31,449 bases of DNA from Candidatus Delongbacteria bacterium (GTDB lineage Bacteria > UBA4055): positions 1 through 31,449 of the forward strand of contig JAFGVM010000012.1 of the NCBI GenBank assembly GCA_016937995.1, read 5' to 3'. Each line of letters begins with the position of its first letter. Position 1 is the first letter of the stretch. This document shows positions 5,822-28,064 of this stretch, piece by piece. The position numbers were made by a program, and so were the translations under genes. The notes beneath the pieces were generated by a model. That model made no database searches. It was not told the origin of the DNA and saw only the letters and a program-made list of their open reading frames with translations.

Positions 5822-7711
5822 ATGGACAGTGTAAAAAAACTTTACAAAATAGTTGCTAGATATTGGAAGCTTATGCTTGCTGGTATCTCAACTATGATGA
5901 TCTTCTCAGTGTTAAGCGGTTTAAGTGTAACAATGGCTGTTCCCCTGTTTGATTATGTATTTGGAACAAAGCATATAGAATCAAAAATCGTTAAATTTGG
6001 ACAATTCCTGGATCTAATATCTGAATCAATAGGAAATTTTTTCTCCAACAGTTCTTTAATGACTATCTTCAGCTCTGAAAATGGTGGTAAATTACTTACC
6101 GACATAAAAGAAATTTTATCACTAACCGATCCTGTACTTCTGCTCTACATGATAGGTTTCACAATGATCTTTCTAATCATACTTAAAAGTTTATTTTATT
6201 ATCTAAACGTATTCATCTTCACTACTCTTAGGGGTAAAGTCACTTTAAATCTTAGAAATATGATCTTCAATAAGGCTATGCATTTAAATTTATCTACGAT
6301 ACATAAAAGAACCATAGGTGATCTTCAGGTTAGAATGACATCTGATATCAATATTGTAGGAGAATTGTTCATAAAGTCCATTTTTGGATCATTAAGAGAT
6401 ATCACTCTTGTGATCGGATATGTTTCTGTAGCTTTTATCATAAATCATAAACTATTGCTTTATACAATGATAATAGTTCCAATTTTCAGCATGGTCATAA
6501 GCTATATCGGCAAAAAGATTAAAAAATATTCAAAAAGGATACAGGAGGCTAATTCACTCTTATATTCTAAGATCGAAGAAGTATTTAATGCAATAAAGGT
6601 AGTAAAATCATTTACTAAGGAAGATCATGAATACGGGAAATATAAAATTATAAATCTTAAATTTTATAAAGCATGGCTAAGAGATAGAATGTATAACGCT
6701 CTGAGTGTTCCTTTATCTGAGTTGAATGGAACGATAATTGGAATGATAGTTCTTGTTATAGGTGGCAAAATGGTATTATCTAACCCCGAAGGTTTTTCTT
6801 TTGGTAGTTTTACAACATTCCTTTTTGCTATTTTTTCAACACTTCATCCTATAAAGAACATAACCAATGCTTACAGCCTTATTAAAAAGGCAAAAGTTTC
6901 ACTTGATAGAGTATTTTTAATAGTTGATATGGACCCAGAGGTAAAAGATCATGAAAGATCAATTTCAAAATCTGAATTTAATTCATCTATTAAATTTGAG
7001 AATATCGGTTTCTCATATAACGTTGATAAAAAAGTACTTGATGATGTTTCTTTCGAATTACCGAAGGGTAAAACTTTCGCTCTTGTTGGAAGCAGTGGAT
7101 CCGGAAAAACTACTCTTATAAATTTGATCGAAAGATTCTATGACCCAACCGAGGGTAGCATTTTGATCGATGGTGTTAACATCAAAGATATTAAGATAAA
7201 GGAATTACACAGTTTATTTGGAACAGTTACACAGGAATCAGTTCTTTTTTATGACACAATAGCAAATAACATAAGATATGGTACGAACAAAGAAATTTCT
7301 GATGATGATATTAAGAACGCTGCAGAGATTAGTTATGCTTATGAGTTCATCAAAGACATGCCTCAGGAGTTTAATACAATGCTGGATCCGAAAGGATCTA
7401 ATCTGTCTGGTGGACAGAAACAAAGATTGTGTATTGCCCGAGCAATTGTAGGTGATCCACCAATATTGGTCTTTGATGAGGCTACAAGTGCACTTGATTC
7501 AGAATCCGAACAAAAAGTACAGAAAGCAATAGAAATGGCAACAAAAGACAGAACAGTTATTATAATTGCTCATAGACTTTCAACAATCTTAAATGCAGAT
7601 AAGATAATTGTAATGGAAGAAGGCAAAATTATAGGTACTGGCACACATGATGAACTTATTACCTCGAATAAGAAATATAAATTACTCTACGATATACAGT
7701 TCGCTCAATAA
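5822..7711 (+). CDS. MsbA-like ABC exporter (fused membrane and ATPase domains)
   Basis: A 629-residue half-transporter that would work as a homodimer in the inner membrane. The N-terminal half carries about six membrane helices; an unusually long loop with ELEMENTS such as FSNSSLMTIFSSENG follows the first helix. The C-terminal ATPase has Walker A GSSGSGKTTL (about 422-431), signature LSGGQKQR (about 529-536), Walker B ILVFDEATSALD (about 547-558) and the switch histidine in IIAHRLST. AGGA precedes the ATG by five bases. It is the first gene of the glycan cluster. The natural reading is lipid-linked saccharide or lipid A-core flipping, since no Wzx or Wzm/Wzt is visible here. Drug or other lipid export cannot be excluded. 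No convincing promoter was found in the 238-base AT-rich gap upstream. Confidence 0.85.
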   Translation: MDSVKKLYKIVARYWKLMLAGISTMMIFSVLSGLSVTMAVPLFDYVFGTKHIESKIVKFGQFLDLISESIGNFFSNSSLMTIFSSENGGKLLTDIKEILSLTDPVLLLYMIGFTMIFLIILKSLFYYLNVFIFTTLRGKVTLNLRNMIFNKAMHLNLSTIHKRTIGDLQVRMTSDINIVGELFIKSIFGSLRDITLVIGYVSVAFIINHKLLLYTMIIVPIFSMVISYIGKKIKKYSKRIQEANSLLYSKIEEVFNAIKVVKSFTKEDHEYGKYKIINLKFYKAWLRDRMYNALSVPLSELNGTIIGMIVLVIGGKMVLSNPEGFSFGSFTTFLFAIFSTLHPIKNITNAYSLIKKAKVSLDRVFLIVDMDPEVKDHERSISKSEFNSSIKFENIGFSYNVDKKVLDDVSFELPKGKTFALVGSSGSGKTTLINLIERFYDPTEGSILIDGVNIKDIKIKELHSLFGTVTQESVLFYDTIANNIRYGTNKEISDDDIKNAAEISYAYEFIKDMPQEFNTMLDPKGSNLSGGQKQRLCIARAIVGDPPILVFDEATSALDSESEQKVQKAIEMATKDRTVIIIAHRLSTILNADKIIVMEEGKIIGTGTHDELITSNKKYKLLYDIQFAQ

Positions 7712-7724
7712 ATGAGAGGATAAG

Positions 7725-8279
7725 ATGAAGTTAAAAAAATATCTATATCTGAAGTTCTACATGGTAAAACTCTATGCAAAGAAGAGTTTCTTGGGATTTG
7801 ATCATATTTTAGATGAATTATCAAATTGCCCCGCAGAATTCACAAGAATAATTTTCGAAAAATATGGAGCTCATATTGGAGAAAAGATCAATTTCAAAGG
7901 AAAGATCGTAGTTGACAATGCTTACAAGGATCTATCAAACCTTCTGATCGGCAATAAGTGTTTCATTGGTAAGCAGGTTTTTTTTGATCTACCTGAAAAA
8001 ATCATTATTGAGGATGAATGTGTTATCTCAGCAGGAGTAAAAATAATCACTCATTCAGATTGTGGTGATAGAGCTATGTCAAAATGGTATCCAAGAAAAA
8101 ATAAAGAGGTTAAGATCGGTTTTGGTTCCTGGATAGGTGTTGATTCCATTATACTCAGTGGTGTTTCATTAGGAAAGTGCTGTGTTGTGGCAGCCGGGTC
8201 AGTAGTAACCGAAAGCTTTCCAGACTATTCTGTATTGGCAGGTATCCCAGCAAAAATCGTAAAAAAATTAGAAGCATAA
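7725..8279 (+). CDS. Left-handed beta-helix acyltransferase (WbbJ/maltose-acetyltransferase type)
   Basis: A 184-residue hexapeptide-repeat enzyme. Repeat-like runs start near residue 50 (GAHIGEKINFKGKIVVDN) and continue through KIGFGSWIGVDSIILSGVSLG to VVAAGSVVTESFPDYSVLAGIPAKIV, the usual C-terminal signature of sugar O- or N-acetyltransferases. A likely catalytic His lies in IITHSDCGD. It probably transfers acetyl from acetyl-CoA to a sugar. One candidate acceptor is the 4-amino sugar made by the genes at 9178-11295, but O-acetylation of the finished glycan is equally possible. GAGG lies five bases before the ATG, 13 bases after the ABC gene. Confidence 0.85.
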   Translation: MKLKKYLYLKFYMVKLYAKKSFLGFDHILDELSNCPAEFTRIIFEKYGAHIGEKINFKGKIVVDNAYKDLSNLLIGNKCFIGKQVFFDLPEKIIIEDECVISAGVKIITHSDCGDRAMSKWYPRKNKEVKIGFGSWIGVDSIILSGVSLGKCCVVAAGSVVTESFPDYSVLAGIPAKIVKKLEA

Positions 8280-9164
8280 ATGGATATTCCGAATAAACGT
8301 ATACTATTCATATCATTTGAAACTTTTGCTAATTTAGCATTTGATCTTCTTGGAAATAAATTCAAAACATTTGATGTTATGCAATATTCTGTCTGGAATA
8401 AAATGGGTTTGCTTTCAAAGATCAATCTTGCAAGAAAATACGATTTTATACATAGTTTCTGGGCAAAGAACAGCTATAATGATATAATCGCATGCAAGCT
8501 GACCGGAACAAAATATATCAATCATTATATCGGTTCTGATGTTCTTAAAGCTCTTGATAGTAGAAAATCCCAGAAAAAAGCTAAAAAAATTTATAAGAAC
8601 TCATACAAAACATTAGCTGATGCAGATAATCTGATCGAAGAATTGAAAGAATTAAAAATTAACGATGTTGAACTCTTGTCAATTTACTTTTATGATAAAA
8701 GCGATGAAAGCTACATTGTAACTCCACCTGACACAAAGAAGATCATGACATACATACCTGAGGGAAAAGAGGATTTTTATGGATTTAATTTTATTATTAA
8801 AGCTGCTATAAAATTCCCTCAATATGAGTTTCAGATCTCTGCGAATGAGGGAAAGTATGATAATATGCCATCGAACGTTTCATTCTTAGGTTGGGTAACA
8901 GATATTAATAAATATATTGATGAATGTTTTTTGTATATACGCAGCACAAAGCATGATGGACTTCCCACTTCAGTAATGCAGGCACTGGTAAAGGGCAAGC
9001 ATGTTTTAAGTTCCCACAAAGTACCGTTTACACATGAAGTAAACCTGGATAACATAGAAAAATGTCTTGCAAAAGATAAAATGAATCATGAAGGAAGAAA
9101 GTATATTTTGGATAACTATTCAAAAGAAAAGGTCATTCAGAAATTTAAAGAACTTTATCAATAG
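8280..9164 (+). CDS. Short GT4-like glycosyltransferase, degenerate catalytic motif
   Basis: A 294-residue GT-B-type protein starting at the base after the preceding stop. The C-terminal half has the GT4 layout: a strand-helix FQISANEG, then FLGWVTDINKYI, then HDGLPTSVMQALVKGKHVLSS. In active GT4 enzymes this last stretch carries the E-x7-E pair; here the two positions read D and Q. The protein is also shorter than most GT4 enzymes (about 350 or more). It may be an active divergent transferase or a non-catalytic partner. The tight junctions to both neighbours place it in the glycan operon. Donor and acceptor sugars cannot be read from sequence. Confidence 0.7.
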   Translation: MDIPNKRILFISFETFANLAFDLLGNKFKTFDVMQYSVWNKMGLLSKINLARKYDFIHSFWAKNSYNDIIACKLTGTKYINHYIGSDVLKALDSRKSQKKAKKIYKNSYKTLADADNLIEELKELKINDVELLSIYFYDKSDESYIVTPPDTKKIMTYIPEGKEDFYGFNFIIKAAIKFPQYEFQISANEGKYDNMPSNVSFLGWVTDINKYIDECFLYIRSTKHDGLPTSVMQALVKGKHVLSSHKVPFTHEVNLDNIEKCLAKDKMNHEGRKYILDNYSKEKVIQKFKELYQ

Positions 9165-9177
9165 ATTTGGAAAAACA

Positions 9178-10299
9178 ATGAACTGGAAAATTACTCTAAG
9201 CGAACCTGATATCGGGATTGAAGAATTAGAAGCAGTTAAAAAAGTATTTGCTAGTAACTGGTTTACAATGGGAAGTATTACTCTGGATTTTGAAAATAAA
9301 TTCGCTCAAATGACTAATACAAAATACGCTTTTGCAGTTACAAATTGCACTGCTGCCCTTCATCTGGCTAATTTAGCTCTCGGTATCATTGAAGGTGATG
9401 AAGTGATCGTACCTGCGCTTACATTTGTTGCATCAGCCAATGCATCAAGATACACCGGTGCAAAAGTAGTTTTTGCTGATTCTATATCTGAAAATGATCT
9501 GACTGTTTGCCCGGAACATATTGAATCTCTTATCACAGAGAGAACAAAAGCAATAACAGTAGTTCATTATGCAGGTTTCAGTTGTGATATGAAAGCTGTT
9601 TTGAATATCGCAAAAAAATACGATCTTAAAATAATTGAAGATTGTGCTCATTCACCCCTTGCTCAATGTGAATTGGATGGAGGAAAACTTTATTTGGGTG
9701 GGATCGGTGATATCGGTTGTTTCAGTTTCTTTGGGAATAAAAATATGACAACTGCCGAAGGTGGAATGATCACTACCAATGATGACGAACTAGCTACAAA
9801 ATTAAAGCTCCTTAGATCTCATGGTATGACATCATTAACATTTGACAGACACAAAGGACATCAGAGCGGATATGACGTCGTCAGTCTTGGACTTAACTAC
9901 AGAATAGATGAGTTAAGATCTGCAATAGGTCTTGTTCAACTTGATAAACTTGAGAATTTCAATGAACAAAGAAGAGAAGTATTCAAACTATATGTTAAAT
10001 ACCTATCCGGTAATGATAATATTATTGTACCGTTCAAAGACAGGGACCTTAATTTAGCTACTCCTCATATTATGCCTGTCATTGTAAAAAATTCAATTGA
10101 AAAGATCAAATCAGCTCTTAAAGAAGCCGGGATACAGACAAGTAAACATTATGATCTTATTCCAACATTCACTCTTTACAGGGATGAACCTTTCACTTCA
10201 CAGATAGAACACATTGAGAACATACTGACTTTACCAATGTCACAGAAGCTTACTGAAGAAGATGTAAAATATATTTGCTGTGTCATAAATTCTATTTAA
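9178..10299 (+). CDS. DegT-family sugar aminotransferase paired with LegB-type dehydratase
   Basis: A PLP aminotransferase of 373 residues. The PLP lysine is K188 in SFFGNKNMTTAEGG, with cofactor residues in IEDCAHSPLA (D155, H158). Start ATG 9178 has TTGGA six bases upstream; the frame is open 30 codons further into the previous gene, but that part does not resemble the family. It sits directly before a LegB-like 4,6-dehydratase, so the likely reaction is transfer of an amine to C4 of an NDP-4-keto-6-deoxy sugar, as LegC does in legionaminic acid synthesis. Assignment to LegC itself is not certain, because perosamine- and bacillosamine-type transaminases look similar. Confidence 0.88.
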   Translation: MNWKITLSEPDIGIEELEAVKKVFASNWFTMGSITLDFENKFAQMTNTKYAFAVTNCTAALHLANLALGIIEGDEVIVPALTFVASANASRYTGAKVVFADSISENDLTVCPEHIESLITERTKAITVVHYAGFSCDMKAVLNIAKKYDLKIIEDCAHSPLAQCELDGGKLYLGGIGDIGCFSFFGNKNMTTAEGGMITTNDDELATKLKLLRSHGMTSLTFDRHKGHQSGYDVVSLGLNYRIDELRSAIGLVQLDKLENFNEQRREVFKLYVKYLSGNDNIIVPFKDRDLNLATPHIMPVIVKNSIEKIKSALKEAGIQTSKHYDLIPTFTLYRDEPFTSQIEHIENILTLPMSQKLTEEDVKYICCVINSI

Positions 10300-10320
10300 T
10301 TCAATGGAGATATTTTGAGT

Positions 10321-11295
10321 ATGAAAAAAATATTAGTAACAGGTGCAGGGGGATTTATAGGTTCCCATCTTGTAGAACTTCTTGTGGCCAAAGGATTTGA
10401 TGTTAAAGCATTTGTACACTATAATTCAAAGTCCGATCATGGATGGCTTGAAACTTCGAAAGTAAAAAATGATATCGAAATATATTCAGGTGACGTAAGA
10501 GACTATGATTCAGTTGAAAAATCTGTAGAAGGTTGTGATACTGTATTTCATCTGGCTGCTTTGATCGGTATTCCCTATTCTTACACTTCTCCGATGGCAT
10601 ATATAAAAACAAACGTAGAAGGAACTTATAATATTTTACAGTCTTCAAGAAAACACAATATTTCTAAAGTGATGGTCACTTCTACAAGTGAAACATATGG
10701 AACCGCCCAGTACGTACCTATTGATGAGAAACATCCTCTGGTAGGACAATCACCATATTCAGCTTCAAAGATAGGCGCAGATCAGCTTGCAGTCAGCTAT
10801 TACAGATCATTTGATACTCCAGTTAAAATTATAAGGCCTTTTAATACATTCGGTCCAAGACAATCTGCAAGAGCTATAATACCTACAGTCATCAGTCAAA
10901 TTTTATCTGGTATAACAGATATTAAACTCGGTAATCTCTCTCCGACAAGAGACCTTACTTTCGTGAAGGATACAGTGAACGGTTTCTTAGAGATCGCATT
11001 GGCAGATAATTTGTTCGGTGAAGTTACCAACATAGGTATGAATACTGAGATATCTATCGGAGAACTTGTAAAAAAGATAGCAAAACTTATGGATACTGAT
11101 ATTTCTGTTACAACCGAGAATGATAGAGTTAGACCGGATAACAGTGAAGTTGAGAGATTGTATTGTGCTAATAAAAAGATCGTTGATAATACTTCCTGGA
11201 AACCTCAATATAATTTAGAAGAAGGACTAAAAGAGACCATCGAATGGATGAAAGAAAATATGAAAATATATAAACCTGGAATATATAACATTTAG
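10321..11295 (+). CDS. LegB-like NDP-sugar 4,6-dehydratase (SDR family)
   Basis: An extended short-chain dehydrogenase of 324 residues that would make a 4-keto-6-deoxy intermediate from an NDP-N-acetylhexosamine. Nucleotide-binding GAGGFIGSH is at 8-16, the acidic/threonine motif STSETYGTAQYVP near 121-133, and catalytic YSASK at 146-150. The runs LAALIGIPYSY, QSPYSASKIGADQLA and FNTFGPRQSARA match what I know of LegB, the dehydratase of legionaminic acid synthesis. I chose ATG 10321 because the family begins MKKILVTG. A TTG at 10315 is closer to GGAGA and could be the start, adding two residues. It lies between its probable partner aminotransferase and a nucleotidyltransferase. Confidence 0.87.
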   Translation: MKKILVTGAGGFIGSHLVELLVAKGFDVKAFVHYNSKSDHGWLETSKVKNDIEIYSGDVRDYDSVEKSVEGCDTVFHLAALIGIPYSYTSPMAYIKTNVEGTYNILQSSRKHNISKVMVTSTSETYGTAQYVPIDEKHPLVGQSPYSASKIGADQLAVSYYRSFDTPVKIIRPFNTFGPRQSARAIIPTVISQILSGITDIKLGNLSPTRDLTFVKDTVNGFLEIALADNLFGEVTNIGMNTEISIGELVKKIAKLMDTDISVTTENDRVRPDNSEVERLYCANKKIVDNTSWKPQYNLEEGLKETIEWMKENMKIYKPGIYNI

Positions 11296-11303
11296 GAGTC
11301 TCT

Positions 11304-12011
11304 ATGCAGGCTGTAATACTTGCCGGTGGTAAAGGAACCAGATTAAAACCTTATACAACAGTTTTACCAAAACCTCTAATGCCTATTGGTGACTACCCCA
11401 TACTTGAAGTACTATTAAGACAGTTGAAATATTTCGGAGTAACTGATATTACAATGGCTGTAGGTCATTTAAAAGAACTTATTCAGGCATTTTTCTCCGA
11501 TGGAAGCAACTGGGATCTGAATATTAAATATTCTTTTGAAAATAAACCTCTTGGAACTGCAGCGCCATTGAAGCTGATATCTGAATTAGATGATGATTTC
11601 CTCGTTATGAACGGAGATGTTCTAACAGACCTGGATTTTAAGGAATTCTTTGAATACCATAAAAGTTCAGGTGCTTTATGCTCGATCGCAATGTATAAAA
11701 AGCCTGTGAAGATCGATCTAGGTGTTCTAGATGTTGATAATAAAAACAAGCTAATTGGTTATACAGAAAAACCTACTCTTAATTATAATGTCAGTATGGG
11801 TGTCTATGCATTTAGTAAAAAAGTGATCGAATATATTCCGAATGATCAATATTTTGATTTTCCCGAGTTGATGTTAAAATTAATGGAAATGGGCCAGAAT
11901 GTACAATGCTACCCTTTCAATGGATACTGGCTGGATATTGGCAGACCTGATGACTACGATATTGCAATAGAACAATTCAACAATAATATCGATAAATTCA
12001 TAAGAAATTAA
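11304..12011 (+). CDS. Sugar-1-phosphate nucleotidyltransferase
   Basis: A 235-residue GT-A nucleotidyltransferase that joins an NTP to a sugar 1-phosphate. Signature GGKGTRLKPYT (8-18), LPKPLMPIGDYP, the acceptor-site PLGTAAPL, metal aspartate in FLVMNGDVLTDL and the late WLDIGRPDDY are all present. AGGAG precedes the ATG. The fold and size match the nucleotidyltransferase part of PtmE-type enzymes, which make the GDP-GlcN used in one legionaminic acid route, and also mannose/glucose-1-phosphate enzymes. The base used cannot be told from sequence. Its place right after the LegB-like gene suggests it activates the sugar that the dehydratase and aminotransferase then modify. Confidence 0.85.
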   Translation: MQAVILAGGKGTRLKPYTTVLPKPLMPIGDYPILEVLLRQLKYFGVTDITMAVGHLKELIQAFFSDGSNWDLNIKYSFENKPLGTAAPLKLISELDDDFLVMNGDVLTDLDFKEFFEYHKSSGALCSIAMYKKPVKIDLGVLDVDNKNKLIGYTEKPTLNYNVSMGVYAFSKKVIEYIPNDQYFDFPELMLKLMEMGQNVQCYPFNGYWLDIGRPDDYDIAIEQFNNNIDKFIRN

Positions 12012-12016
12012 ATTTA

Positions 12017-13093
12017 ATGAACATTTTATTCCTAAATTCAAAAAAAAGCTGGGCGGGTGTAGTTTCCTGGAAAACCACACTTGCTAAGAACTTGATCAGT
12101 AAAGGTCACAACTGTTTTATTGTAACAGGCAGAAATTCAGCTTTGGCAAAAAATAAACCTGATGATCTGGAACTGCATACTATAAAATTTGGAATGAATT
12201 ATAATCCCTGGACTTTATTTTTCTTTATTAAATTCATTAGGAAACATAAGATAGATATCATCGTTACAAATATAAAAAAAGAAGTGATCTTTGGTGGAAT
12301 AGCAGGAAAACTGACAGGTGTTACTGTAGTAAGAAGAATAGGAAATGAGAAGGATTTTAAATCCGGTAAGTTTCTTGATAGTAATTTTGTGGATCATTTT
12401 CTCTTCCCGTGCGATTATACAAGAAAACTAGCTATAAACAAAATTAAATGGCTTGATCCAAAAAAAACAAAAGTGATCCATACCGGAAAGATAATTCCTG
12501 AATTTTCTGATGCTGAAATAGCTGATAAAAGAGAAAGCTGGGGAGCAAAAAAAGATGATATCGTGATAGGTATCTCAGACAGACTTGATAAAAATAAAGG
12601 TATTGATCTACTGATAAAGGTCTTTGCATCCTTATCGCAGAAATATGATAACATAAAATTAGTGATCACCGGCAAAGGTAGTTTTGGAACTCAACTTGAA
12701 GAACTGGTAGATGAACTTAATATCAGAGAAAGAGTTTTATTCGCAGGTTTTGTAACTGATGTAATGCTGACTGCAAGATCTTATGATTTAGCTGTACTTG
12801 CCTCTTACCTTGAATCATTTCCAAATTCTGTAATAGAATATATGGCTTCTAACACAGCAGTGATCTGTACGGATGTAGGCGGAGTATCTGAGCTTGTTTA
12901 TAACGGAAGTAATGGTTTCCTTATACCCAAGCAAAATGAAAATGAACTAAGATCAGCTTTAGAAAAACTTATCACGAACAAAAACTTAAGACAAAGTTTT
13001 GCAATAAACGCACTGGATACGATAAAAAAAGGATTCACAGAAGATAAAATGGCTGATAAGGTTATTGAATTTTTTAACGAAATAAAGAGATAG
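12017..13093 (+). CDS. GT4-family glycosyltransferase
   Basis: A 358-residue retaining GT-B glycosyltransferase. The N-terminal acceptor domain begins MNILFLNSKKSWAGV. The C-terminal donor domain has VIGISDRLDKNKGIDLLI, LVITGKG, VLFAGFVTDV and the E-x7-E motif in ESFPNSVIEYMASN, which holds the donor nucleotide sugar. No Shine-Dalgarno is obvious; translation may be coupled to the gene six bases upstream. It probably adds one sugar to the growing glycan at the cytoplasmic face. The linkage is not predictable. Confidence 0.88.
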   Translation: MNILFLNSKKSWAGVVSWKTTLAKNLISKGHNCFIVTGRNSALAKNKPDDLELHTIKFGMNYNPWTLFFFIKFIRKHKIDIIVTNIKKEVIFGGIAGKLTGVTVVRRIGNEKDFKSGKFLDSNFVDHFLFPCDYTRKLAINKIKWLDPKKTKVIHTGKIIPEFSDAEIADKRESWGAKKDDIVIGISDRLDKNKGIDLLIKVFASLSQKYDNIKLVITGKGSFGTQLEELVDELNIRERVLFAGFVTDVMLTARSYDLAVLASYLESFPNSVIEYMASNTAVICTDVGGVSELVYNGSNGFLIPKQNENELRSALEKLITNKNLRQSFAINALDTIKKGFTEDKMADKVIEFFNEIKR

Positions 13094-14362
13094 ATGAAGA
13101 ACTGCTTGATAATTACTACTAATTTTCCGCCTACAGGTGGCATAGGTGTCCAGAGAGTGACCAAGATCACTAAATATCTGCCTGATCATGGTATTAATCC
13201 GATTATTGTTACTGTTCCTTCGTATTCTTCAAAAAGATCCACCAAAGACATTTCAATGCTTGAAGAATTGAGTAAGGATCTTGAAATTCACAGACCGTTC
13301 TTCATTGATTACCGTAAATTCTTTCCCGGAGATATTTCCAAGTTTGTAGATCGTTTTTTCTTTCCTGATAAATACAAATTATGGTGTCATTTTGCTTTTA
13401 AAACAATAAAAAAGATAGCACTTGAAAAAGAAATTGACGCGATCTTCATTACAGTGAAAAGTTTTTCATTATTATCACTGGTCAAACCATTGAAGGAAAA
13501 ATTTGGAATACCGGTAATAGTTGATTTCAGAGATCCCTTCTCATTCAATTTTTATAATGCAGACAAACCACAAAAGATCAAAGATAAAATGATAGCTCTT
13601 GAGAAAGAAGCATTTGAAAATGCAGATATTATCACAACAGTAACACCGTTTATTTCAAACAGATACAAAGAGATTTATCCTAATGCTAATATTCATACGA
13701 TCACCAATGGTTTTGACACGAAGGACTTTCCCATAGTATCCGATGTCAGAGATATTCATGATCTTAAAGAGTTCTCTATCGGATATAGTGGTACTTTCAG
13801 CAAAATGGCACCTATTGATGTGATCATTAACGCTATTATAAAGATCTATGAAGAACATGATATTTCAATAAAACTCAATATTGCTACTCCTATTGCTTCA
13901 GAAGTAATAAAAAAGAAACATCCTAAATTATTCGAATACGGTCTGATAAATCATTTAGGATTTTTACCACATAAAGAAAGTATTTCCAGGCTATATCACA
14001 ATCAGTTGCTTCTTTTTATGCTGATCAATGATAAGAAGACCGAGGGAGTATATTCAGGTAAAATATTCGAATATTTCAATATCCCAAGGCCTGTATTATT
14101 CCTTAATAGAAAAGGAAGCAGCTTAAGCGAACTCATAGAAGTAACTAAAAAAGGTTATACCGTTGATATAAACGATCAAAAAGAAATAACAACGACCCTT
14201 TTGGATCTTTACCATTCATGGAAAAACAAAAAAATGCAATATGATCCTGATCCTGATAAAATATCAGAATTCAGCTATAAAAACATTACAAAGAAAGTTT
14301 CTGAATTGATAAATAATTCTATTAAAAATAATCAGTATGAAGAGGCAAATAATGAAAATTGA
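13094..14362 (+). CDS. GT4-like glycosyltransferase
   Basis: A 422-residue GT-B protein. The N-terminus (CLIITTNFPPTGGIGVQRVTK) has the glycine-rich acceptor-domain start typical of this group. VIVDFRDPF and ADIITTVTPFISNRY mark the domain middle, and FSIGYSGTF and HLGFLPHKESI the donor domain. Near the expected E-x7-E site it reads KTEGVYSGKIFEYFNIPRP, which keeps both glutamates in suitable positions. The start codon follows the previous stop directly, and the end overlaps the next gene by 11 bases, so translation is probably coupled. Confidence 0.83.
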   Translation: MKNCLIITTNFPPTGGIGVQRVTKITKYLPDHGINPIIVTVPSYSSKRSTKDISMLEELSKDLEIHRPFFIDYRKFFPGDISKFVDRFFFPDKYKLWCHFAFKTIKKIALEKEIDAIFITVKSFSLLSLVKPLKEKFGIPVIVDFRDPFSFNFYNADKPQKIKDKMIALEKEAFENADIITTVTPFISNRYKEIYPNANIHTITNGFDTKDFPIVSDVRDIHDLKEFSIGYSGTFSKMAPIDVIINAIIKIYEEHDISIKLNIATPIASEVIKKKHPKLFEYGLINHLGFLPHKESISRLYHNQLLLFMLINDKKTEGVYSGKIFEYFNIPRPVLFLNRKGSSLSELIEVTKKGYTVDINDQKEITTTLLDLYHSWKNKKMQYDPDPDKISEFSYKNITKKVSELINNSIKNNQYEEANNEN

Positions 14363-14735
14363 TATCTCTATTGGAGAACTGGTTGACAAGGTAACAATAC
14401 TGTCGATCAAACTTGAAAAATTTAAAGATGAAGTTAAAAAATCTAATGTTCAGAAAGAATATGACATCTTAACTGTACCTATGAACCAAATTGGAATTAC
14501 TACAGATTCAAAAGAATTTAAAGATCTAAGAGAAATTAATCTGAAACTTTGGCATATTGAGGATGATATCAGAATTGAAGAATCAAAGTCAGAATTCGGA
14601 ACTAAATTTATTGAGTTAGCCAGAAGTGTATACTTCATCAACGATGATAGAGCAGCAGTGAAAAAAGAGATCAATCTGAAGTATAATTCTGATCTGGTCG
14701 AAGAAAAAGAATACGTTGATTATAAAAAGAAATAA
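14352..14735 (+). CDS. Small DUF6165-like protein
   Basis: A 127-residue soluble, charged, mostly helical protein. It starts KIDISIGELVDKVTILSIKL and carries LWHIEDDIRIEE and ELARSVYFINDDRAAVKKEI, a pattern I recall as the DUF6165 family, whose biochemical role I do not know. Start ATG 14352 has AGAGG six bases upstream; an in-frame ATG at 14337 overlaps that site. It overlaps the preceding glycosyltransferase by 11 bases and is followed within 12 bases by the GT9 gene. This points to a role in, or with, surface glycan synthesis. Confidence 0.7.
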   Translation: MKIDISIGELVDKVTILSIKLEKFKDEVKKSNVQKEYDILTVPMNQIGITTDSKEFKDLREINLKLWHIEDDIRIEESKSEFGTKFIELARSVYFINDDRAAVKKEINLKYNSDLVEEKEYVDYKKK

Positions 14736-14746
14736 CTGAGGTAGAA

Positions 14747-15820
14747 TTGGGAAGCAAAGTAGGAAGAAAACTGAGTGCAAAGCAATTAGCTGGGATTAAA
14801 AGAATCCTTGTGATACAATACAAACCTTTTGGTGATGTTTTATTGAACACTGCATACCTGTCCCCTTTAAGAAAAACATTTCCTGAAGCTACGATCGACT
14901 ATCTGGTCCAGAGACCTTTCAAAACTATACTGGAAGATAATCCCGACCTTGATAATCTGATCCTGATGGAAAAGAAGAAAGGTAAGACTTTAGCTTACTA
15001 CTGGGAAAGAGTAAAGACGATCTTCAGAGTTAGAAAATTAAAGTATGATATGATAATAGATCAGATAAGAGGTCCGGGATCATCTCAGATAACTTTATTC
15101 AGCGGGGCAAAATACAAACTTGGATGGAACAGAAAAACACTTCGTAACTGGTTTAAAGGTTATAACTGGGTTTACAATTATAGAGAGGACAGAGATCATA
15201 AAGTCTATGCCGGCAAGGCTAAATTCAAATTGCTTGCCCCTTTAGGTATAGAGTATAACGGTGAAAATTTATTTTATCATGTTAAACCTGGATCTATAGA
15301 GTTTGTAAACAACTGGCTGACAGAAATTGATCTTACTGATAAGAAATTTGTTGTATTTTCACCTGTAACTCCTGTTTACAGGAAACAATGGCCTTTCGAG
15401 CGCTTTGCAAAGGTAGCTGATATGATAAAAGAGATAGCAGGACTTGAGGTTATACTGGTATGGGGTCCGGGAGAAAAAGAGAAAGTAGAGTATATGGCAT
15501 CTCAAATGAAAACAGATCCTGTAATTGCTCCAAATACAACTTTCAATCAGGCTGGAGCATTACTGAAAAGAACTTTTATCTACATAGGCAACGACGGAGG
15601 TATTATTCATCTTGCTGTGGCTATGAACACGCCAACGATAGCTATATTCGGACCTAAGACAGATCCTCTAAAATGGACTTCATGGCACTTACCTATCCAT
15701 AAATATCTAAGGGATTTTGATTTCAGAGATCCTAAGGATAATACATTTAATATTTCACCTGAACAGGTGTTCGATCAGTTTCAGGAACTTAAACAATTTT
15801 TAGAAAACAGGAAATCTTAA
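14747..15820 (+). CDS. GT9-family glycosyltransferase (ADP-heptose:LPS heptosyltransferase type)
   Basis: A 357-residue GT-B protein of the heptosyltransferase family, which adds L,D- or D,D-heptose to the LPS inner core or to related glycans. Family marks are KRILVIQYKPFGDVLLNTAYLSP at the N-terminus, VVFSPVTPVYRKQWP in the middle, and YIGNDGGIIHLAVAMNTPT then AIFGPKTDPLKW near the C-terminus. The start is TTG with GAGG five bases upstream. GT9 presence supports a diderm envelope with a heptose-containing acceptor. ADP-heptose synthesis genes are not in the window, so the donor is inferred from the family. Confidence 0.88.
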   Translation: MGSKVGRKLSAKQLAGIKRILVIQYKPFGDVLLNTAYLSPLRKTFPEATIDYLVQRPFKTILEDNPDLDNLILMEKKKGKTLAYYWERVKTIFRVRKLKYDMIIDQIRGPGSSQITLFSGAKYKLGWNRKTLRNWFKGYNWVYNYREDRDHKVYAGKAKFKLLAPLGIEYNGENLFYHVKPGSIEFVNNWLTEIDLTDKKFVVFSPVTPVYRKQWPFERFAKVADMIKEIAGLEVILVWGPGEKEKVEYMASQMKTDPVIAPNTTFNQAGALLKRTFIYIGNDGGIIHLAVAMNTPTIAIFGPKTDPLKWTSWHLPIHKYLRDFDFRDPKDNTFNISPEQVFDQFQELKQFLENRKS

Positions 15821-16209
15821 TGAAAAAAGTTATTACTTACGGAACATTTGACCTATTTCATATTGGACATTTGAATATTCTTAAAAGAGCAAAAGCACTC
15901 GGAGACTATCTTGTTGTAGCTGTTTCTACTGATGAATTTAATCTTATCAAGGATAAAGTATGCACATATCCATACGAAGAAAGAGCAGCTATAGTGGAAG
16001 CTTTAAAATATGTTGATGAAGTTATACCTGAGAACAACTGGGAACAGAAAATTAAAGATGTACAGAATCACAATATTGATATTTTTGTCATGGGTAACGA
16101 CTGGGTAAGTAAATTTGACTTTCTTAAAGAATATTGTCAAGTTGTATATCTACCGAGAACTGATGGAATTTCAACCACAGAAATAAAGAACGGACTGAAA
16201 AGCAGCTAA
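15820..16209 (+). CDS. tagD: Glycerol-3-phosphate cytidylyltransferase (TagD/GCT type)
   Basis: A 129-residue nucleotidylyltransferase, the usual size for TagD. It joins CTP and glycerol 3-phosphate to give CDP-glycerol. The HxGH signature lies in GTFDLFHIGHLNIL, and the second nucleotide-binding motif in RTDGISTTEIK corresponds to the family's RT-x-GISTT. Other members use ethanolamine phosphate, or ADP/heptose phosphates as in HldE, but the closeness to TagD in size and motif and the CDP-glycerol-transferase-like gene directly downstream support CDP-glycerol. It shares one base with the gene before and one with the gene after. Confidence 0.85.
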   Translation: MKKVITYGTFDLFHIGHLNILKRAKALGDYLVVAVSTDEFNLIKDKVCTYPYEERAAIVEALKYVDEVIPENNWEQKIKDVQNHNIDIFVMGNDWVSKFDFLKEYCQVVYLPRTDGISTTEIKNGLKSS

Positions 16210-17261
16210 TGAAATATTTATTCTACATATCAAAGTCCTATTCAATCACTATTATCAAACCTTTGATGGAATATCTTGATAATACTCAAGATAAATATGT
16301 TATTCTTGTTTCCAGAAAAGTGAAAAAGAAAATAACCGAAGAAAATATATGGACTGATAAAACTGTAATAACTACCGTTCAGGAAGGAATTGAATTCAAT
16401 CCTGACTTCTGCCTGTCACCCGGTAATTATGTTGACTTTAGACTTCCCGGGATCAAAGTTGAGATCTTTCATGGAATTGGGATAGAAAAACCATCTCATT
16501 ATGAGATCAGACATTTCTTTGATGTGTATCTTACTTCTGGTCCTGTTGTAACTGAGAAATTCAATGAACTGCAAAAGAAATATGGATATTTTCTGGTACG
16601 TGAAACAGGCTGGCCTAAAATGGATCATATAATGTCTTATCCGGCTGAGAATATTAGAGAAAAGTACGGATTTCCAACTGTTAAAAAGATAATTCTTTAT
16701 GCTCCGACATTCAGTAAGAAGATGCAGTCAGCTGATGCTCTTATTGGTATTATCCCAGAGATCATAAAAGACGATGAGATCTGGCTGATGAAATTTCATG
16801 AGTTCATGGATAAGGACACAATTCAAAAGATCGGAGAGCTTTCAGATCCACGTATTATTCTGGTGAGCACTCATGATATCACTCCTTATCTGTATATAGC
16901 TGACGTAATGATCTCTGATACTTCTTCAGTGATCTACGAATTCATGGCTCTGGATAAACCTGTTATAACCTTTAGAACAATGAGTAGAAAAGATAAAGGT
17001 ATTGATATTTCATCACCTGAGGAACTAAGATCTGCTTTAGACAGAACTCTCTCTGATCCAGCTGAACATTCTGCTATAAGAATGAAACATCTCAATGAAG
17101 TTAATCCTTATCTCAATAGCAATATTGCTACTAATATTTTCAAAGTTCTCGAAGATATTATTAAAAACAATGAACTCCCGAAGAAGAAAAAACCATTGAA
17201 TATTTTCAGAAAGTTACGGATACTTTATCATGAGAAGTTCAGAAACGGACACTTAAAATAA
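16209..17261 (+). CDS. CDP-glycerol glycerophosphotransferase-like protein (TagB/TagF family), copy 1
   Basis: A 350-residue GT-B-like protein of the family that moves glycerol phosphate from CDP-glycerol to an acceptor. Seen: FHGIGIEKPSHYEI (family HG-x-GxxK region), RETGWPKMDHI, IILYAPTFSKKM and DVMISDTSSVIYEFMALDKPVI, where the family usually has SDYSS. The C-terminal tail is basic (KKKKPLNIFRKLRILYHEKF), which could hold it at the membrane surface. It begins at the last base of the TagD-type gene, strong context for CDP-glycerol as donor. Whether it adds a single glycerol phosphate (TagB-like) or polymerises (TagF-like) is open; the absence of the long N-terminal extension argues for single addition. 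Confidence 0.8.
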   Translation: MKYLFYISKSYSITIIKPLMEYLDNTQDKYVILVSRKVKKKITEENIWTDKTVITTVQEGIEFNPDFCLSPGNYVDFRLPGIKVEIFHGIGIEKPSHYEIRHFFDVYLTSGPVVTEKFNELQKKYGYFLVRETGWPKMDHIMSYPAENIREKYGFPTVKKIILYAPTFSKKMQSADALIGIIPEIIKDDEIWLMKFHEFMDKDTIQKIGELSDPRIILVSTHDITPYLYIADVMISDTSSVIYEFMALDKPVITFRTMSRKDKGIDISSPEELRSALDRTLSDPAEHSAIRMKHLNEVNPYLNSNIATNIFKVLEDIIKNNELPKKKKPLNIFRKLRILYHEKFRNGHLK

Positions 17262-17276
17262 TTGGAATTAAATTAA

Positions 17277-17870
17277 ATGGCTGGAAATTTAACACTTACC
17301 GGAAAACTTGAAGTTACTGCCAGAAAGATGCTAAAAGATGTCTGCAGGATACTTGATGAGAATAATATTCCTTATACTCTTGAAGGCGGAACTCTTTTAG
17401 GTATCATTAGAGAAAACAGGTTACTTCCGTGGGATAACGACCTGGATTTGACCATTACAGATGATCATCTTGATAAACTTATTAAGATCAGATGGAAGAT
17501 CTGGCTTGCAGGATATAGAACCAGAATCAGAAAATCTAAGAAAGATATGCCCCACTTCCCTGCAGGCTCAGTACGACTAATTAAGATCCAAACCAGGAAA
17601 TTTCTTTTGAAAGGTGTAAGTCTTCTTGATGTATTTGTAAAAACTAAGGTTGATGAGAAATATTTCTGGACTGTTGGGATCAAGAATCCTGTACTGAAAT
17701 CCGTACCGTTTCATTTCTATGAGCAACTTACTAAATTCCCGTTTGACGGATACGATTATTCTGTACCTGAAAAATATGAGGATTACCTGACCTATCGTTA
17801 TGATGACTGGAAGATAGCTGTGAAAGAGTATGATTTCAAGAAAGATGATAAAGCTATAGAAAAACCGTAA
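17277..17870 (+). CDS. LicD-family phosphotransferase
   Basis: A 197-residue protein with the LicD core: LEGGTLLGIIRENRLLPW then DNDLDL near the N-terminus, matching the family's GTLLG-x(n)-PWDDDxD metal-binding motif with Asn at one position, and YRYDDWKI near the end. LicD enzymes move phosphocholine (or similar phospho-groups such as ribitol or glycerol phosphate) from a CDP-activated donor to a sugar. It lies between a CDP-glycerol-transferase-like gene and a LicC-like cytidylyltransferase, so phosphocholine, another phospho-base or glycerol phosphate are all possible. The protein is shorter than pneumococcal LicD. Confidence 0.8.
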   Translation: MAGNLTLTGKLEVTARKMLKDVCRILDENNIPYTLEGGTLLGIIRENRLLPWDNDLDLTITDDHLDKLIKIRWKIWLAGYRTRIRKSKKDMPHFPAGSVRLIKIQTRKFLLKGVSLLDVFVKTKVDEKYFWTVGIKNPVLKSVPFHFYEQLTKFPFDGYDYSVPEKYEDYLTYRYDDWKIAVKEYDFKKDDKAIEKP

Positions 17871-17893
17871 AGACGCAACACTTTGCGACTCTT
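17870..17893. repeat. Imperfect hairpin repeat between the LicD-like and LicC-like genes
   Basis: AAGA-CGCAA, loop CACT, TTGCG-(AC bulge)-TCTT: nine base pairs with a two-base bulge, directly after the LicD stop and before the AAGGAG of the next gene. It resembles a dispersed palindrome (GAGACGCAA / TTGCGTCTC) that I recall from several phyla. It lacks a T run, so it is not a normal terminator. It could stabilise or process mRNA. I saw no second copy here. Confidence 0.45.
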
Positions 17894-17911
17894 CAAAAAG
17901 GAGAAAATACA

Positions 17912-18673
17912 ATGAGAGCTATAATAATTGCAGCAGGAAAAGGCACAAGACTATACCCATTGACCAAGAACACACCGAAAAGCCTCCTTGAAATAGGTAA
18001 TGGTATAACTATGCTTGAATCCCAGCTTCATAGTTTAAAAGAAAATAATATAAAGGATGTTACAATTATTGTAGGATATAGAGCAGAACAGATAGAAGCT
18101 AAAATAAAAAAATATCAGGATGATTTTAATATCAATACCGTATTTAATCCATTCTATGACTGTTCTAATAACCTTATTTCAGTATGGATGGCAAGACACT
18201 GGATGAAAGATGAATTTATCACTATAAACGGAGACGATATTTTTAAGCCTTCAGTTATAGAAAACCTTCTTAAAAGCGAAAGTAATATTACTATGGTGAT
18301 CGATGAGAAGGAAAAGTATGATGAGGATGATATGAAGGTGGTTCACAGTGATGGACTTGTTCAGCAGGTAAGTAAAAAGATATCAATGGAAGAAGTAAAC
18401 GGAGAATCAGTAGGTATTATAAAATTCTCCGGCAGAGGTCCACAGATCTATGTTGATACTCTTGAAGAAATGGTCAGAGATGAATCGAACCGTGATGTAT
18501 TTTACTTGAAGGCTATACAGCAGATAATTGATAAAGGATATCCGGTTAATTATTCTAAATGTATGGAAAATGACTGGAGTGAGCTTGACTTCCACCCTGA
18601 CCTTGTAATGATAAAACAATACCTCAGAAGATCTAACTTAATTGATACAATATTCCCCGGAAAGGATAAATAA
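17912..18673 (+). CDS. LicC-like cytidylyltransferase (phospho-base nucleotidyltransferase)
   Basis: A 253-residue GT-A nucleotidyltransferase. Signature AAGKGTRLYPLTKNTPKSLL at the N-terminus, then NPFYDCSNNLISVWMAR and FITINGDDIF, which fit the phosphocholine-cytidylyltransferase-type branch (LicC and phosphonoalkyl relatives) rather than standard sugar enzymes. It would make CDP-choline or a similar CDP-activated base for the LicD-like protein encoded just upstream. AAGGAG eight bases before the ATG gives a strong ribosome site. No choline uptake or choline kinase gene is visible nearby, so the base (choline, ethanolamine, aminoethylphosphonate or other) is unproven. Confidence 0.78.
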   Translation: MRAIIIAAGKGTRLYPLTKNTPKSLLEIGNGITMLESQLHSLKENNIKDVTIIVGYRAEQIEAKIKKYQDDFNINTVFNPFYDCSNNLISVWMARHWMKDEFITINGDDIFKPSVIENLLKSESNITMVIDEKEKYDEDDMKVVHSDGLVQQVSKKISMEEVNGESVGIIKFSGRGPQIYVDTLEEMVRDESNRDVFYLKAIQQIIDKGYPVNYSKCMENDWSELDFHPDLVMIKQYLRRSNLIDTIFPGKDK

Positions 18674-18693
18674 AAATAAGTATTCGATACTCA

Positions 18694-20307
18694 ATGTACC
18701 TTAATAAAACAAAAAACATTATCCTGTATGTTATAATTTCACTGGGAATTGCAGCATCATGTGATTATCTGTACTCTGTTTATAATTCATACTACACATA
18801 CTATCCTACAAAAAGCAACCTGACATATCCTATAATGTTCTTCCTAATGCTTTCCCTTGTATCAAAATTCCGGGTAAGGATAATCATTATATCAGTTTTA
18901 TCTGCGATCACGATGTTCCAGTTCTTTTATTTCCAGTTTTTTGGAAATATTCTACCTCCTATCTCATTTATTCAGTTCTTTCAGAATACAGGAGAGGTAT
19001 TTGAATCATTTGCACCTTTGATCCCACAATTTGTTTTTCCTTTCCTGATCGTAATATTTTTATTCGTCTCACTATTCTACATTAACAAATTATTTCATGA
19101 TAAATTATTCCACTTCAAGTTTTCAAGTTATTTATTGCCTGCAGGTTTAATTATTCATCTGATAATCATATTCTCGGTATTGAATAATTCAAAAGGAAGA
19201 TTAAACAATGCTCAGTCAAGGCTCATTTATCCCAGACCCAACAGACTTGCATTTGAAAATTATATCAGAACCACAAATTACTTTTTAGTTGGGATCTTAC
19301 CTAAGAAAATTAATGGATCTTATGATGAGTTAAGATCATTATCAGAGCCTGAAAAGATCATTGACAAACCAAACAGGAATATCGTTTTGGTCATAGGTGA
19401 ATCTCTTAGGAGCGACAGGCTTTCTTTACTTGGTTATGATCGGAAAACCACACCCAGATTAGATTCATTAGCTGAAAACAGAATAATTTCTTCCCGAAAT
19501 ATTTTCCCGGGAGGAACAATGACCAATACCTCTTTTGCTGTACTTATGAACAGGCTGATCTCCCCTGAATATAATGCTCAAATAATTGACCAGAAGAATA
19601 ATCTTTTCAGGCTTGCAAAAGAAAATGGGTTCTCAACCCATTTCATTTCAAGGAATTCTTTCAGTCAGCTTGAAACCATGCACAGTCTCTTATCAAGACA
19701 GAACATTGATACTTTCTGCAGTAAGTCTAACATGACAGATTTTCTGAAAGAACCTGAAGATTACGATATTGATCTTGTGGGATTACTTAAAAATATCGAT
19801 CTGAACAGCAGTAATTTTATAATTCTGCAGCAGAGAAGATCACATTCTCCCTGTTTCAAGCAGTATCCTGAGTATTTCGGTACTTTTGAAGATGAATATG
19901 ATAATACCGTTCTTTATACAGACCTGGTGCTTAGTAAAATGATAGATCATCTATCAAAGAATTCACCTTTGGAAACATTCTTCATTTTCACTTCTGATCA
20001 CGGTGAGTTACTTGGTGAGAACGGAAGGAACAGTCACGGTTGCTTTGAAGATGGAGTGATCAATGTTCCTTTTGTATTCTATACGAATTCTGAAGCTGAT
20101 TCAATTAAGACCGTAAGTAATAATATCAGATGTCATTTCGACGTTAGTTCATTTATTGGTTTTCTTCTTGGTTACAATACCAAAATTCCAGATGATCCTG
20201 AAAGAGATATTTATATCAACGGAACAGATATTGACGGTTTTGCGGGTTATTTGTATATTAAGACTAAGAATGATACTATCGTTGAGCAACATGAGCTAAA
20301 ATTATAA
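18694..20307 (+). CDS. EptA/MCR-like phosphoethanolamine transferase (sulfatase fold)
   Basis: A 537-residue inner-membrane enzyme: about five N-terminal helices (near 8-25, 45-60, 62-82, 113-132, 147-163) and a periplasmic alkaline-phosphatase-fold domain from about 225. All key positions of this group can be matched: E236 in VIGES, the nucleophile threonine T277 in GGTMTNTS, H384 in RRSHSP, D435-H436 in TSDHGELLGENG and H448 in SHG. YDNTVLYTDLVLSKMIDHL is the family's typical stretch. It would transfer phosphoethanolamine, or another phospholipid head group such as phosphoglycerol, to lipid A, core or glycan. The cysteines that flank the nucleophile in MCR/EptA are absent. No clear Shine-Dalgarno precedes the ATG. 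Confidence 0.82.
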   Translation: MYLNKTKNIILYVIISLGIAASCDYLYSVYNSYYTYYPTKSNLTYPIMFFLMLSLVSKFRVRIIIISVLSAITMFQFFYFQFFGNILPPISFIQFFQNTGEVFESFAPLIPQFVFPFLIVIFLFVSLFYINKLFHDKLFHFKFSSYLLPAGLIIHLIIIFSVLNNSKGRLNNAQSRLIYPRPNRLAFENYIRTTNYFLVGILPKKINGSYDELRSLSEPEKIIDKPNRNIVLVIGESLRSDRLSLLGYDRKTTPRLDSLAENRIISSRNIFPGGTMTNTSFAVLMNRLISPEYNAQIIDQKNNLFRLAKENGFSTHFISRNSFSQLETMHSLLSRQNIDTFCSKSNMTDFLKEPEDYDIDLVGLLKNIDLNSSNFIILQQRRSHSPCFKQYPEYFGTFEDEYDNTVLYTDLVLSKMIDHLSKNSPLETFFIFTSDHGELLGENGRNSHGCFEDGVINVPFVFYTNSEADSIKTVSNNIRCHFDVSSFIGFLLGYNTKIPDDPERDIYINGTDIDGFAGYLYIKTKNDTIVEQHELKL

Positions 20308-20316
20308 CACGGACTT

Positions 20317-21405
20317 ATGATGATAAAAGTACTTTTTGACCTGAAAAAAGAATATTATTTCAATTCACTATATCCACTATACAAAGAAATGGTGAAAGAT
20401 CCCAACTATGATATTTACTTTCGGATCGGTAAAGATCAGAAAAGATTTCTTGGTATATTTCTTATCAATGAAAAGAACCGTATCGCTGAATGGATGAAAA
20501 AAGAGGGTTATAAGCTTACAGATGAGAGAGCTGGATTTGACCTTGTTGTCTGTGGTGATGCATTTAAAGATCCTGAGAAGTACGGTGAGTGTATCAGAGT
20601 TCATCTTGACCATGGTGTAGGAATTAAAACACTTAGGATCAGGAACATCGTAAAGCAGAAGGATTATCACTATCATGTATTCCTTGAAGGTCAGTACTGG
20701 TATGACTATATAAAATCTCTGAACTGGGAAGATAAGGCTGATTTCTATATTACCGGACTTCCTAAGCTTGATCCTTTCTTCTGGGTAGGAGAATATGATA
20801 AAGATTCTCTTGTAAAAAAGATCGGTATCGATCCGGATAAGAAAACAGTTCTTTATGCACCTTCGTATAAACCAAGTTGCATAGAGCATATCAAAGGTAG
20901 AATTGCAGAATTACTACCGAAGTATAATCTAGTAATAAAACTTCACCCTTACAGCTGGGGTGGGAAATATGCTTCACATTCTCAGCATAGATACTATGAA
21001 ATACTGGCTAAAGAGAATTCATCAGTTTTCCTTATCGAAAAAGAAGACTATGACATTTATCCATATATGTACATTTCAGATACTTTGATCAGTGATACTT
21101 CTAGTGTTATCAATGAATTCCTTGCAATGGGTAAACACGGTATAATCTATGAACTTCCTTATGAAAAGCTGAATCACTCTGATGGAATGTCTGTGTTATC
21201 AATAGATCCCAAAGAATGGCTACTTGGAGCTTTCCCCCATATGAAGTCACCAGATGATCTTATTCCTGCTGTAGAGCAAGCCCTCAACCCTACTGAGGAA
21301 ATGAAAGCAAAGCTTGAAGAATACAGAAATTATTTCTTTACCGGTCTTGACGGAAGATCAGGTATCAGAGTTAAAGCAAAGATCGATGAGATAATGGGGA
21401 AATGA
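20317..21405 (+). CDS. CDP-glycerol glycerophosphotransferase-like protein (TagB/TagF family), copy 2
   Basis: A 362-residue relative of the protein encoded at 16209, sharing the layout rather than close identity: HLDHGVGIKTLRI, FYITGLPKLDPF, VLYAPSYKPSC, LVIKLHPYSW and TLISDTSSVINEFLAMGK. The conserved HG and HP histidines of the family are present. Start could be ATG 20317 or the next codon. It is the last gene of the plus-strand glycan cluster, nine bases after the EptA-like gene. Two such transferases in one locus suggest two different acceptors or sequential additions. No terminator is visible before the convergent MFS gene. Confidence 0.8.
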   Translation: MMIKVLFDLKKEYYFNSLYPLYKEMVKDPNYDIYFRIGKDQKRFLGIFLINEKNRIAEWMKKEGYKLTDERAGFDLVVCGDAFKDPEKYGECIRVHLDHGVGIKTLRIRNIVKQKDYHYHVFLEGQYWYDYIKSLNWEDKADFYITGLPKLDPFFWVGEYDKDSLVKKIGIDPDKKTVLYAPSYKPSCIEHIKGRIAELLPKYNLVIKLHPYSWGGKYASHSQHRYYEILAKENSSVFLIEKEDYDIYPYMYISDTLISDTSSVINEFLAMGKHGIIYELPYEKLNHSDGMSVLSIDPKEWLLGAFPHMKSPDDLIPAVEQALNPTEEMKAKLEEYRNYFFTGLDGRSGIRVKAKIDEIMGK

Positions 21406-27974: not shown

Positions 27975-28064
27975 GATCATATTCCACAATTATTTCGGCA
28001 TGAATGAGCCATAGATAATTTATTGAATACATCCATTAATGGCAAATTATTAATATTTACTATC

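Follow-up and report, generated by a model that had tools for sequence, protein, structure and literature searches.

A 31,449-nucleotide stretch of Candidatus Delongbacteria DNA (assembly GCA_016937995.1, contig JAFGVM010000012.1; the whole stretch is called the window) carries a single run of 16 open reading frames, from 5822 to 21405, whose 3′ end (15820 to 21405) is a putative teichoic-acid-like module built around TagD and two TagF-like transferases, here TagF1 and TagF2. All 16 genes point the same way, and the spacing between neighbours ranges from −77 to +41 bases, so they probably form one transcription unit; scanning the run for promoters and terminators gave a number of sites not above that in shuffled sequences. 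To our knowledge, the phylum Delongbacteria (UBP11) is known from metagenomes only. The assembly comprises 2.75 Mb and is 97% complete, and the genome-wide absences given below come from single-family profile searches of it. An earlier interpretation of the window made without database searches (the sequence-only reading) had proposed a TagD-type cytidylyltransferase, two CDP-glycerol (cytidine diphosphate glycerol) glycerophosphotransferase-like proteins and LicD-, LicC- and EptA-like proteins in a co-directional run with a GT9 gene and an MsbA-like exporter. All reading frames of the module were confirmed at the coordinates it gave, and profile searches bore out these family assignments:

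5822..7711, + strand: MsbA-like ABC exporter, first gene of the run (TIGR02203, 460.6 bits against a cut-off of 602)
7725..13093, + strand: variable sugar genes, namely hexapeptide acetyltransferase, glycosyltransferase, DegT aminotransferase, LegB-type 4,6-dehydratase, sugar nucleotidyltransferase and GT4 (Pfam/NCBIfam)
13094..14362, + strand: GT4-type glycosyltransferase (PF13439, above cut-off)
14337..14735, + strand: DUF6165 protein (PF19662, 56.8 bits)
14747..15820, + strand: GT9 heptosyltransferase-type glycosyltransferase (PF01075, 1e-29)
15820..16209, + strand: TagD, predicted glycerol-3-phosphate cytidylyltransferase (TIGR01518, 180.3 bits against 165.4)
16209..17261, + strand: TagF1, single-domain TagF-like transferase (PF04464, 69.9 bits against 22.1)
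17277..17870, + strand: LicD-family phosphotransferase (PF04991, 67.7 bits against 22.6)
17912..18673, + strand: LicC-like cytidine triphosphate (CTP) transferase (NTP_transferase; 1JYK 2.7e-18, 6PD1 5.8e-10)
18694..20307, + strand: EptA-like periplasmic phosphoethanolamine transferase, an optional member (PF00884; NF028537, 114 bits against 500)
20317..21405, + strand: TagF2, single-domain TagF-like transferase (PF04464, 62.4 bits against 22.1)

TagD is the strongest assignment of the module. Its score with the heptose adenylyltransferase model (61 bits) is far under that with TIGR01518, and the protein is predicted to be a glycerol-3-phosphate cytidylyltransferase, not the heptose-type enzyme that the sequence-only reading had named as a possible refutation. 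CDP-glycerol would then be the donor for TagF1 and TagF2, as suggested by the presence of TagD in the operon. TagF1 (350 residues) and TagF2 (362 residues) are both single-domain proteins and the sole two PF04464 matches in the assembly; the epimerase family profile stays under its cut-off for both, and neither was placed in an unrelated GT-B family. Two histidines are invariant in each group, H88 and H197 in 23 TagF1 sequences and H99 and H210 in 30 TagF2 sequences. Partly by motif (Cps3D/TarL matches), these were equated with the catalytic histidines of TagF, H444 and H584 (PMC5974469), and of Cps3D, H479 and H609 (PMC11666461). TagF1 gave sequence matches to TarL and Cps3D. AlphaFold2 models were obtained with mean confidence scores (pLDDT) of 90.2 for TagF1 and 87.7 for TagF2, and TagF was the nearest of all structures to the TagF2 model (Z 24.9), followed by TarL (Z 23.7) and epimerases (up to 22). 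The same comparison, which the sequence-only reading had proposed, gave a tie for TagF1 (see below). Residues ~325-350 of TagF1 (16209-17261) form a basic C-terminal tail (FRKLRILYHEKFRNGHLK) that is kept across phyla and may contact the membrane or a partner.

A contig scan with TagF2 returned 37 loci, 33 of them with a TagF2 orthologue; many of the 33 contigs are short, so the neighbour counts are lower bounds. The orthologues come from Delongbacteria, Cloacimonadota, Calditrichota, Fidelibacterota (Neomarinimicrobiota) and Fermentibacterota. TagF2 is 62-93% identical in 29 relatives (62-75% outside Delongbacteria) and is the most widely conserved part of the module. Grouping by phylum in the TagF2 tree exceeds that obtained with shuffled labels, which fits long residence in these lineages; old transfers remain compatible with this pattern. 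A TagF1 orthologue lies within 9 kb of TagF2 in at least 24 of the 33 loci and directly adjoins it in at least 18, and another PF04464-like protein is found nearby in at least 26. The same MsbA subfamily (at least 600 bits) occurs near TagF2 in at least 12 of the 33, LicD in at least 13 and TagD in at least 11. Within Delongbacteria the order GT9-TagD-TagF1-LicD-LicC-(EptA)-TagF2 recurs. This recurrence in related genomes, found by the gene-neighbourhood comparison that the sequence-only reading had recommended, argues that the association is not due to chance.

A longer order, MsbA - pyruvyl transferase - GT4 - GT9 - DUF6165 - (ATP-grasp in L028) - GT9 - TagF1 - TagF2, is common to one Delongbacteria locus (L028), where further genes are interspersed, and one Cloacimonadota locus (L045). 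The place of the DUF6165 gene (14337-14735 in the window) between a glycosyltransferase and a GT9 gene is kept in Delongbacteria and Cloacimonadota (L045, L060). The genes after the TagF pair vary by locus and encode LicD/LicC, a TarL-like protein or an inositol-phosphate synthase cassette; in the Delongbacteria loci L024, L031 and probably L030 another PF04464 protein replaces LicD-LicC. The cassette, which consists of inositol-1-phosphate synthase, a second LicC-like cytidylyltransferase and a TagF-like protein, stands behind TagF1-TagF2 in L045 (12213-15390) and L060 and behind TagF2 in L055. Its position behind TagF genes in these Cloacimonadota and Fidelibacterota loci suggests inositol phosphate as a building block there. 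Elsewhere in Cloacimonadota, one to three copies of HldE-domain-II-like cytidylyl/adenylyltransferases adjoin TagF1-TagF2 (L041:3820-5620, L043:5120-6327, L048, L051, L053 and L059), and none of these reached the cut-off of a curated model. In the Delongbacteria locus L026, two LicD genes (8610-9221 and 10308-10910) flank TagF1.

Profile searches of the host genome found LpxC (9.5e-82) and KdtA (6.1e-37). The host is a diderm and, with both genes present, very likely makes lipopolysaccharide (LPS). The MsbA-like protein at 5822 is the genome's top TIGR02203 scorer and its best candidate for a lipid A flippase, and no ligase gene lies within the run. A core oligosaccharide on lipid A would require no additional ligase and agrees with both the GT9 genes and an exporter of MsbA type; we put lipid A-core as the acceptor at a little over one half. 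The fuller proposal, that glycerol phosphate is placed on the lipid A-core oligosaccharide and that the MsbA-like protein exports the product, is modestly favoured. The RfaQ/heptosyltransferase III models score under their cut-offs for the GT9 protein at 14747.

Several observations weigh against this proposal. The exporter falls short of the lipid A flippase cut-off (460.6 bits against 602), and the genome holds two further exporter loci. LpxC was not found in two of the 13 family genomes (G001 and G008), and both contain the module. TagF1 and TagF2 read HGIG or HGVG where TagF and Cps3D read HGTP. The TagF1 model is tied between TagF (Z 23.4) and UDP-GlcNAc 2-epimerases (Z 23.9); fold comparison was therefore dropped as proof of TagF1 identity, and the sequence profile carries this predicted assignment. 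The activities of all members of the module are predicted from sequence.

An alternative that we consider somewhat unlikely places the product outside LPS. A teichoic-acid-like glycolipid of its own, carried by undecaprenyl phosphate, diacylglycerol or some other lipid, would be synthesised in the cytoplasm and leave through an MsbA/PglK-like transporter devoted to it. In favour of this, the protein at 5822 scores under the MsbA cut-off and also resembles other glycan exporters, and other exporters able to flip lipid A are present in the genome. However, the sole PF00953 match is MraY (by sequence and motif), leaving no TagO/WecA-type protein by that search; the PF02397 initiating type was not searched. 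The run is without a ligase gene, and a single Wzy_C protein occurs in the genome, within a cluster of exopolysaccharide type whose other genes resemble Wza/Wzc by eye. The position of GT9 genes next to TagF1 also points to a core oligosaccharide.

What LicC and LicD would add to the lipid A-core product is a separate question. The protein at 17277 is the only PF04991 LicD match in the genome and contains GTLLG and PWDxDxD motifs, the latter invariant in 17 relatives; it also matches Fukutin-related protein. The best solved relative of 17912 is Streptococcus pneumoniae LicC (1JYK), and its orthologues in Delongbacteria and Cloacimonadota are 67-90% identical, so its role is predicted to be conserved across the two phyla. 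These matches and the adjoining LicD and LicC genes (in reversed order in the Cloacimonadota locus L054) would suit a Lic-type pathway adding phosphocholine to the glycan beside glycerol phosphate, the phospho-base of the sequence-only reading. The substrate amine is contacted by D105 and D192 in S. pneumoniae LicC and by E104 and E196 in Treponema denticola PntC (PMC6697681). In alignments of the 17912 family an invariant Asn (N106) stands at the D105/E104 position, and at the D192 position, aligned by hand, the residue is Lys, Met, Arg or Ala. A search for the choline kinase LicA gave a best match of 24.4 bits, under the cut-off of 29 and not near the cluster. LicC-type enzymes also use inositol phosphate and phosphoglycerate (PMC12275187) as well as phosphonates (PMC6697681), and LicD-family proteins can polymerise glycerol phosphate, as CpsC does (PMC11666461). 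For these reasons phosphocholine is not accepted as the group carried by the predicted LicC/LicD pair, and we regard the pathway as unlikely.

We judge it just as unlikely that LicD is itself a CpsC-like glycerol-phosphate polymerase, such that the module makes poly(glycerol phosphate) and LicC serves another step. The precedent of CpsC and the many loci in which LicD directly follows TagF1 or TagF2, several without a nearby LicC orthologue, speak for this possibility, but LicD and LicC are neighbours in several loci and LicD is missing from some TagF1-TagF2 loci. Inositol phosphate was rejected as the LicC substrate in this genome, as inositol-1-phosphate synthase was not found in the 13 family genomes. 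In the Cloacimonadota loci L052 (12812-15467), L057 and L045, the LicC orthologue adjoins a divergent CDP-alcohol phosphotransferase and a Maf gene; the NCBIfam models nearest to this phosphotransferase are inositol-phosphate lipid synthases, under cut-off. A query without a positive control did not find it in the 13 family genomes.

The protein at 18694 has a predicted sulfatase fold in common with EptA/MCR transferases, and its best NCBIfam model is a phosphoethanolamine-lipid A transferase (NF028537). Unlike these enzymes it scores under the curated cut-offs, and its gene is optional in the family, being absent from clusters L026, L028 and L033. Because sulfatase-type catalytic motifs are visible in its sequence, we keep the prediction that it works like EptA.

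With wall teichoic acid synthesis in Bacillus and Staphylococcus (TagB/TarF/TagF and TagD) the module shares TagD and TagF-like proteins with two catalytic histidines, the TagF2 model being nearest TagF. In having one domain each, TagF1 and TagF2 resemble TagB and TarF and differ from the large polymerases TagF and Cps. The module differs in its diderm host, in having no TagO/WecA found and no long TagF polymerase, and in a run without a TagGH-type exporter. The Lic phosphocholine pathway of S. pneumoniae and Haemophilus influenzae likewise has adjoining LicC-like and LicD-family genes, whereas here there is no clear LicA and the choline-contact residues of LicC are not kept. TagF-like enzymes have been known in diderms since 2018 as capsule polymerases (PMC5974469). 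The CpsA/CpsC/CpsD system of the Actinobacillus pleuropneumoniae group 2 capsule (PMC11666461) resembles the module in its diderm host, CDP-glycerol, a PF04464 primer with a LicD-family enzyme and transfer of glycerol phosphate onto a Kdo (3-deoxy-D-manno-octulosonic acid)-containing acceptor, as proposed here. In that system the anchor is KpsC/KpsS poly-Kdo and the polymerase is large, with several domains; neither was found here, and the Delongbacteria module has single-domain enzymes, GT9 genes and an MsbA-like exporter at the head of the operon. A group 2-type capsule of the kind made by Actinobacillus and Neisseria, in which a TagF-like polymerase would work on phosphatidylglycerol-anchored poly-Kdo, is very improbable: among proteins of solved structure Cps3D is closest in sequence to both TagF proteins, and CpsA (PF04464) and CpsC (LicD family) are a known pair (PMC11666461), but both TagF proteins are short and single-domain, and the KpsC/KpsS family (PF05159), whose absence led us to reject this candidate, has no match in the genome itself or in 12 of the 13 family genomes. 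With KpsC/KpsS absent and MraY alone matching PF00953, both a group 2 capsule anchor and a TagO-primed wall-teichoic anchor seem unlikely. The sequence-only reading is thus partly supported: a TagD/TagF-type glycerol-phosphate module is present in a diderm host that has genes for lipid A, and the capsule-like form of the glycan is unlikely.

For decoration of the lipid A-core, we infer the acceptor, transfer order, chain length and LicC/LicD cargo, and propose the following route. On the cytoplasmic side, GT4 and GT9 enzymes would extend lipid A-Kdo with a core oligosaccharide, glycerol phosphate being added next. TagD would produce CDP-glycerol, from which TagF1 and TagF2, as TagB/TarF-type enzymes, would attach glycerol-phosphate units one after another, in the way that wall teichoic acid is begun by TagB and TarF and a capsule is primed by CpsA. 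LicC would charge a further phospho-alcohol using CTP, and LicD would set it on the chain or a sugar. The MsbA-like exporter would flip the completed glycolipid, to which the EptA-like enzyme may add phosphoethanolamine from the periplasmic side. Tentatively, and with less confidence than in the acceptor, we extend this scheme to a modular "teichoic LPS" of deep diderm lineages, in which TagF1-TagF2 would install a conserved glycerol-phosphate linkage on the LPS core. Exchangeable cassettes would then attach different phospho-alcohols, inositol phosphate among them; these cassettes would be LicC/LicD, a TarL-like protein, or inositol-1-phosphate synthase together with a cytidylyltransferase and a TagF-like enzyme of its own.

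Elsewhere in the window, the LegB-type 4,6-dehydratase (10315-11295) scores above its cut-off and is accompanied by an aminotransferase and a nucleotidyltransferase; as the run holds no further legionaminic acid genes, its product is probably another amino sugar. All three genes are missing from the related cluster L025. On the minus strand, 26691-27989 encodes a glycerol-kinase-like protein of 432 amino acids that matches GlpK in two stretches, ~65 middle residues apparently missing, and 28065-29203 resembles, by eye, a BLUF-type light sensor with an EAL-type protein after it.

Textbook accounts assign polyol phosphates of the teichoic-acid type to Gram-positive bacteria, the diderm exception being the capsules of a few pathogens. 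No description of the module in Delongbacteria or Cloacimonadota was found in the literature searched, which reached few subscription journals; the novelty suggested by the sequence-only reading holds to that extent. That the module spans several phyla had gone unnoticed. TagF-like enzymes in diderms are not new; absent from the literature searched is the arrangement seen here, in which two short TagF proteins are encoded in an MsbA/GT9 operon that lacks the capsule and wall-teichoic anchors and is followed by interchangeable cassettes, in several mostly uncultured phyla. Four or more further phyla have the two TagF proteins, which suggests that their surface glycolipid carries a teichoic-acid-like decoration not yet described. 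If the conserved TagF pair in its MsbA/GT9 operon has this role in at least five diderm phyla, glycerol-phosphate-decorated surface glycolipids would be old and widespread, which would bear on the relation of monoderm and diderm envelopes and provide named enzymes for testing.

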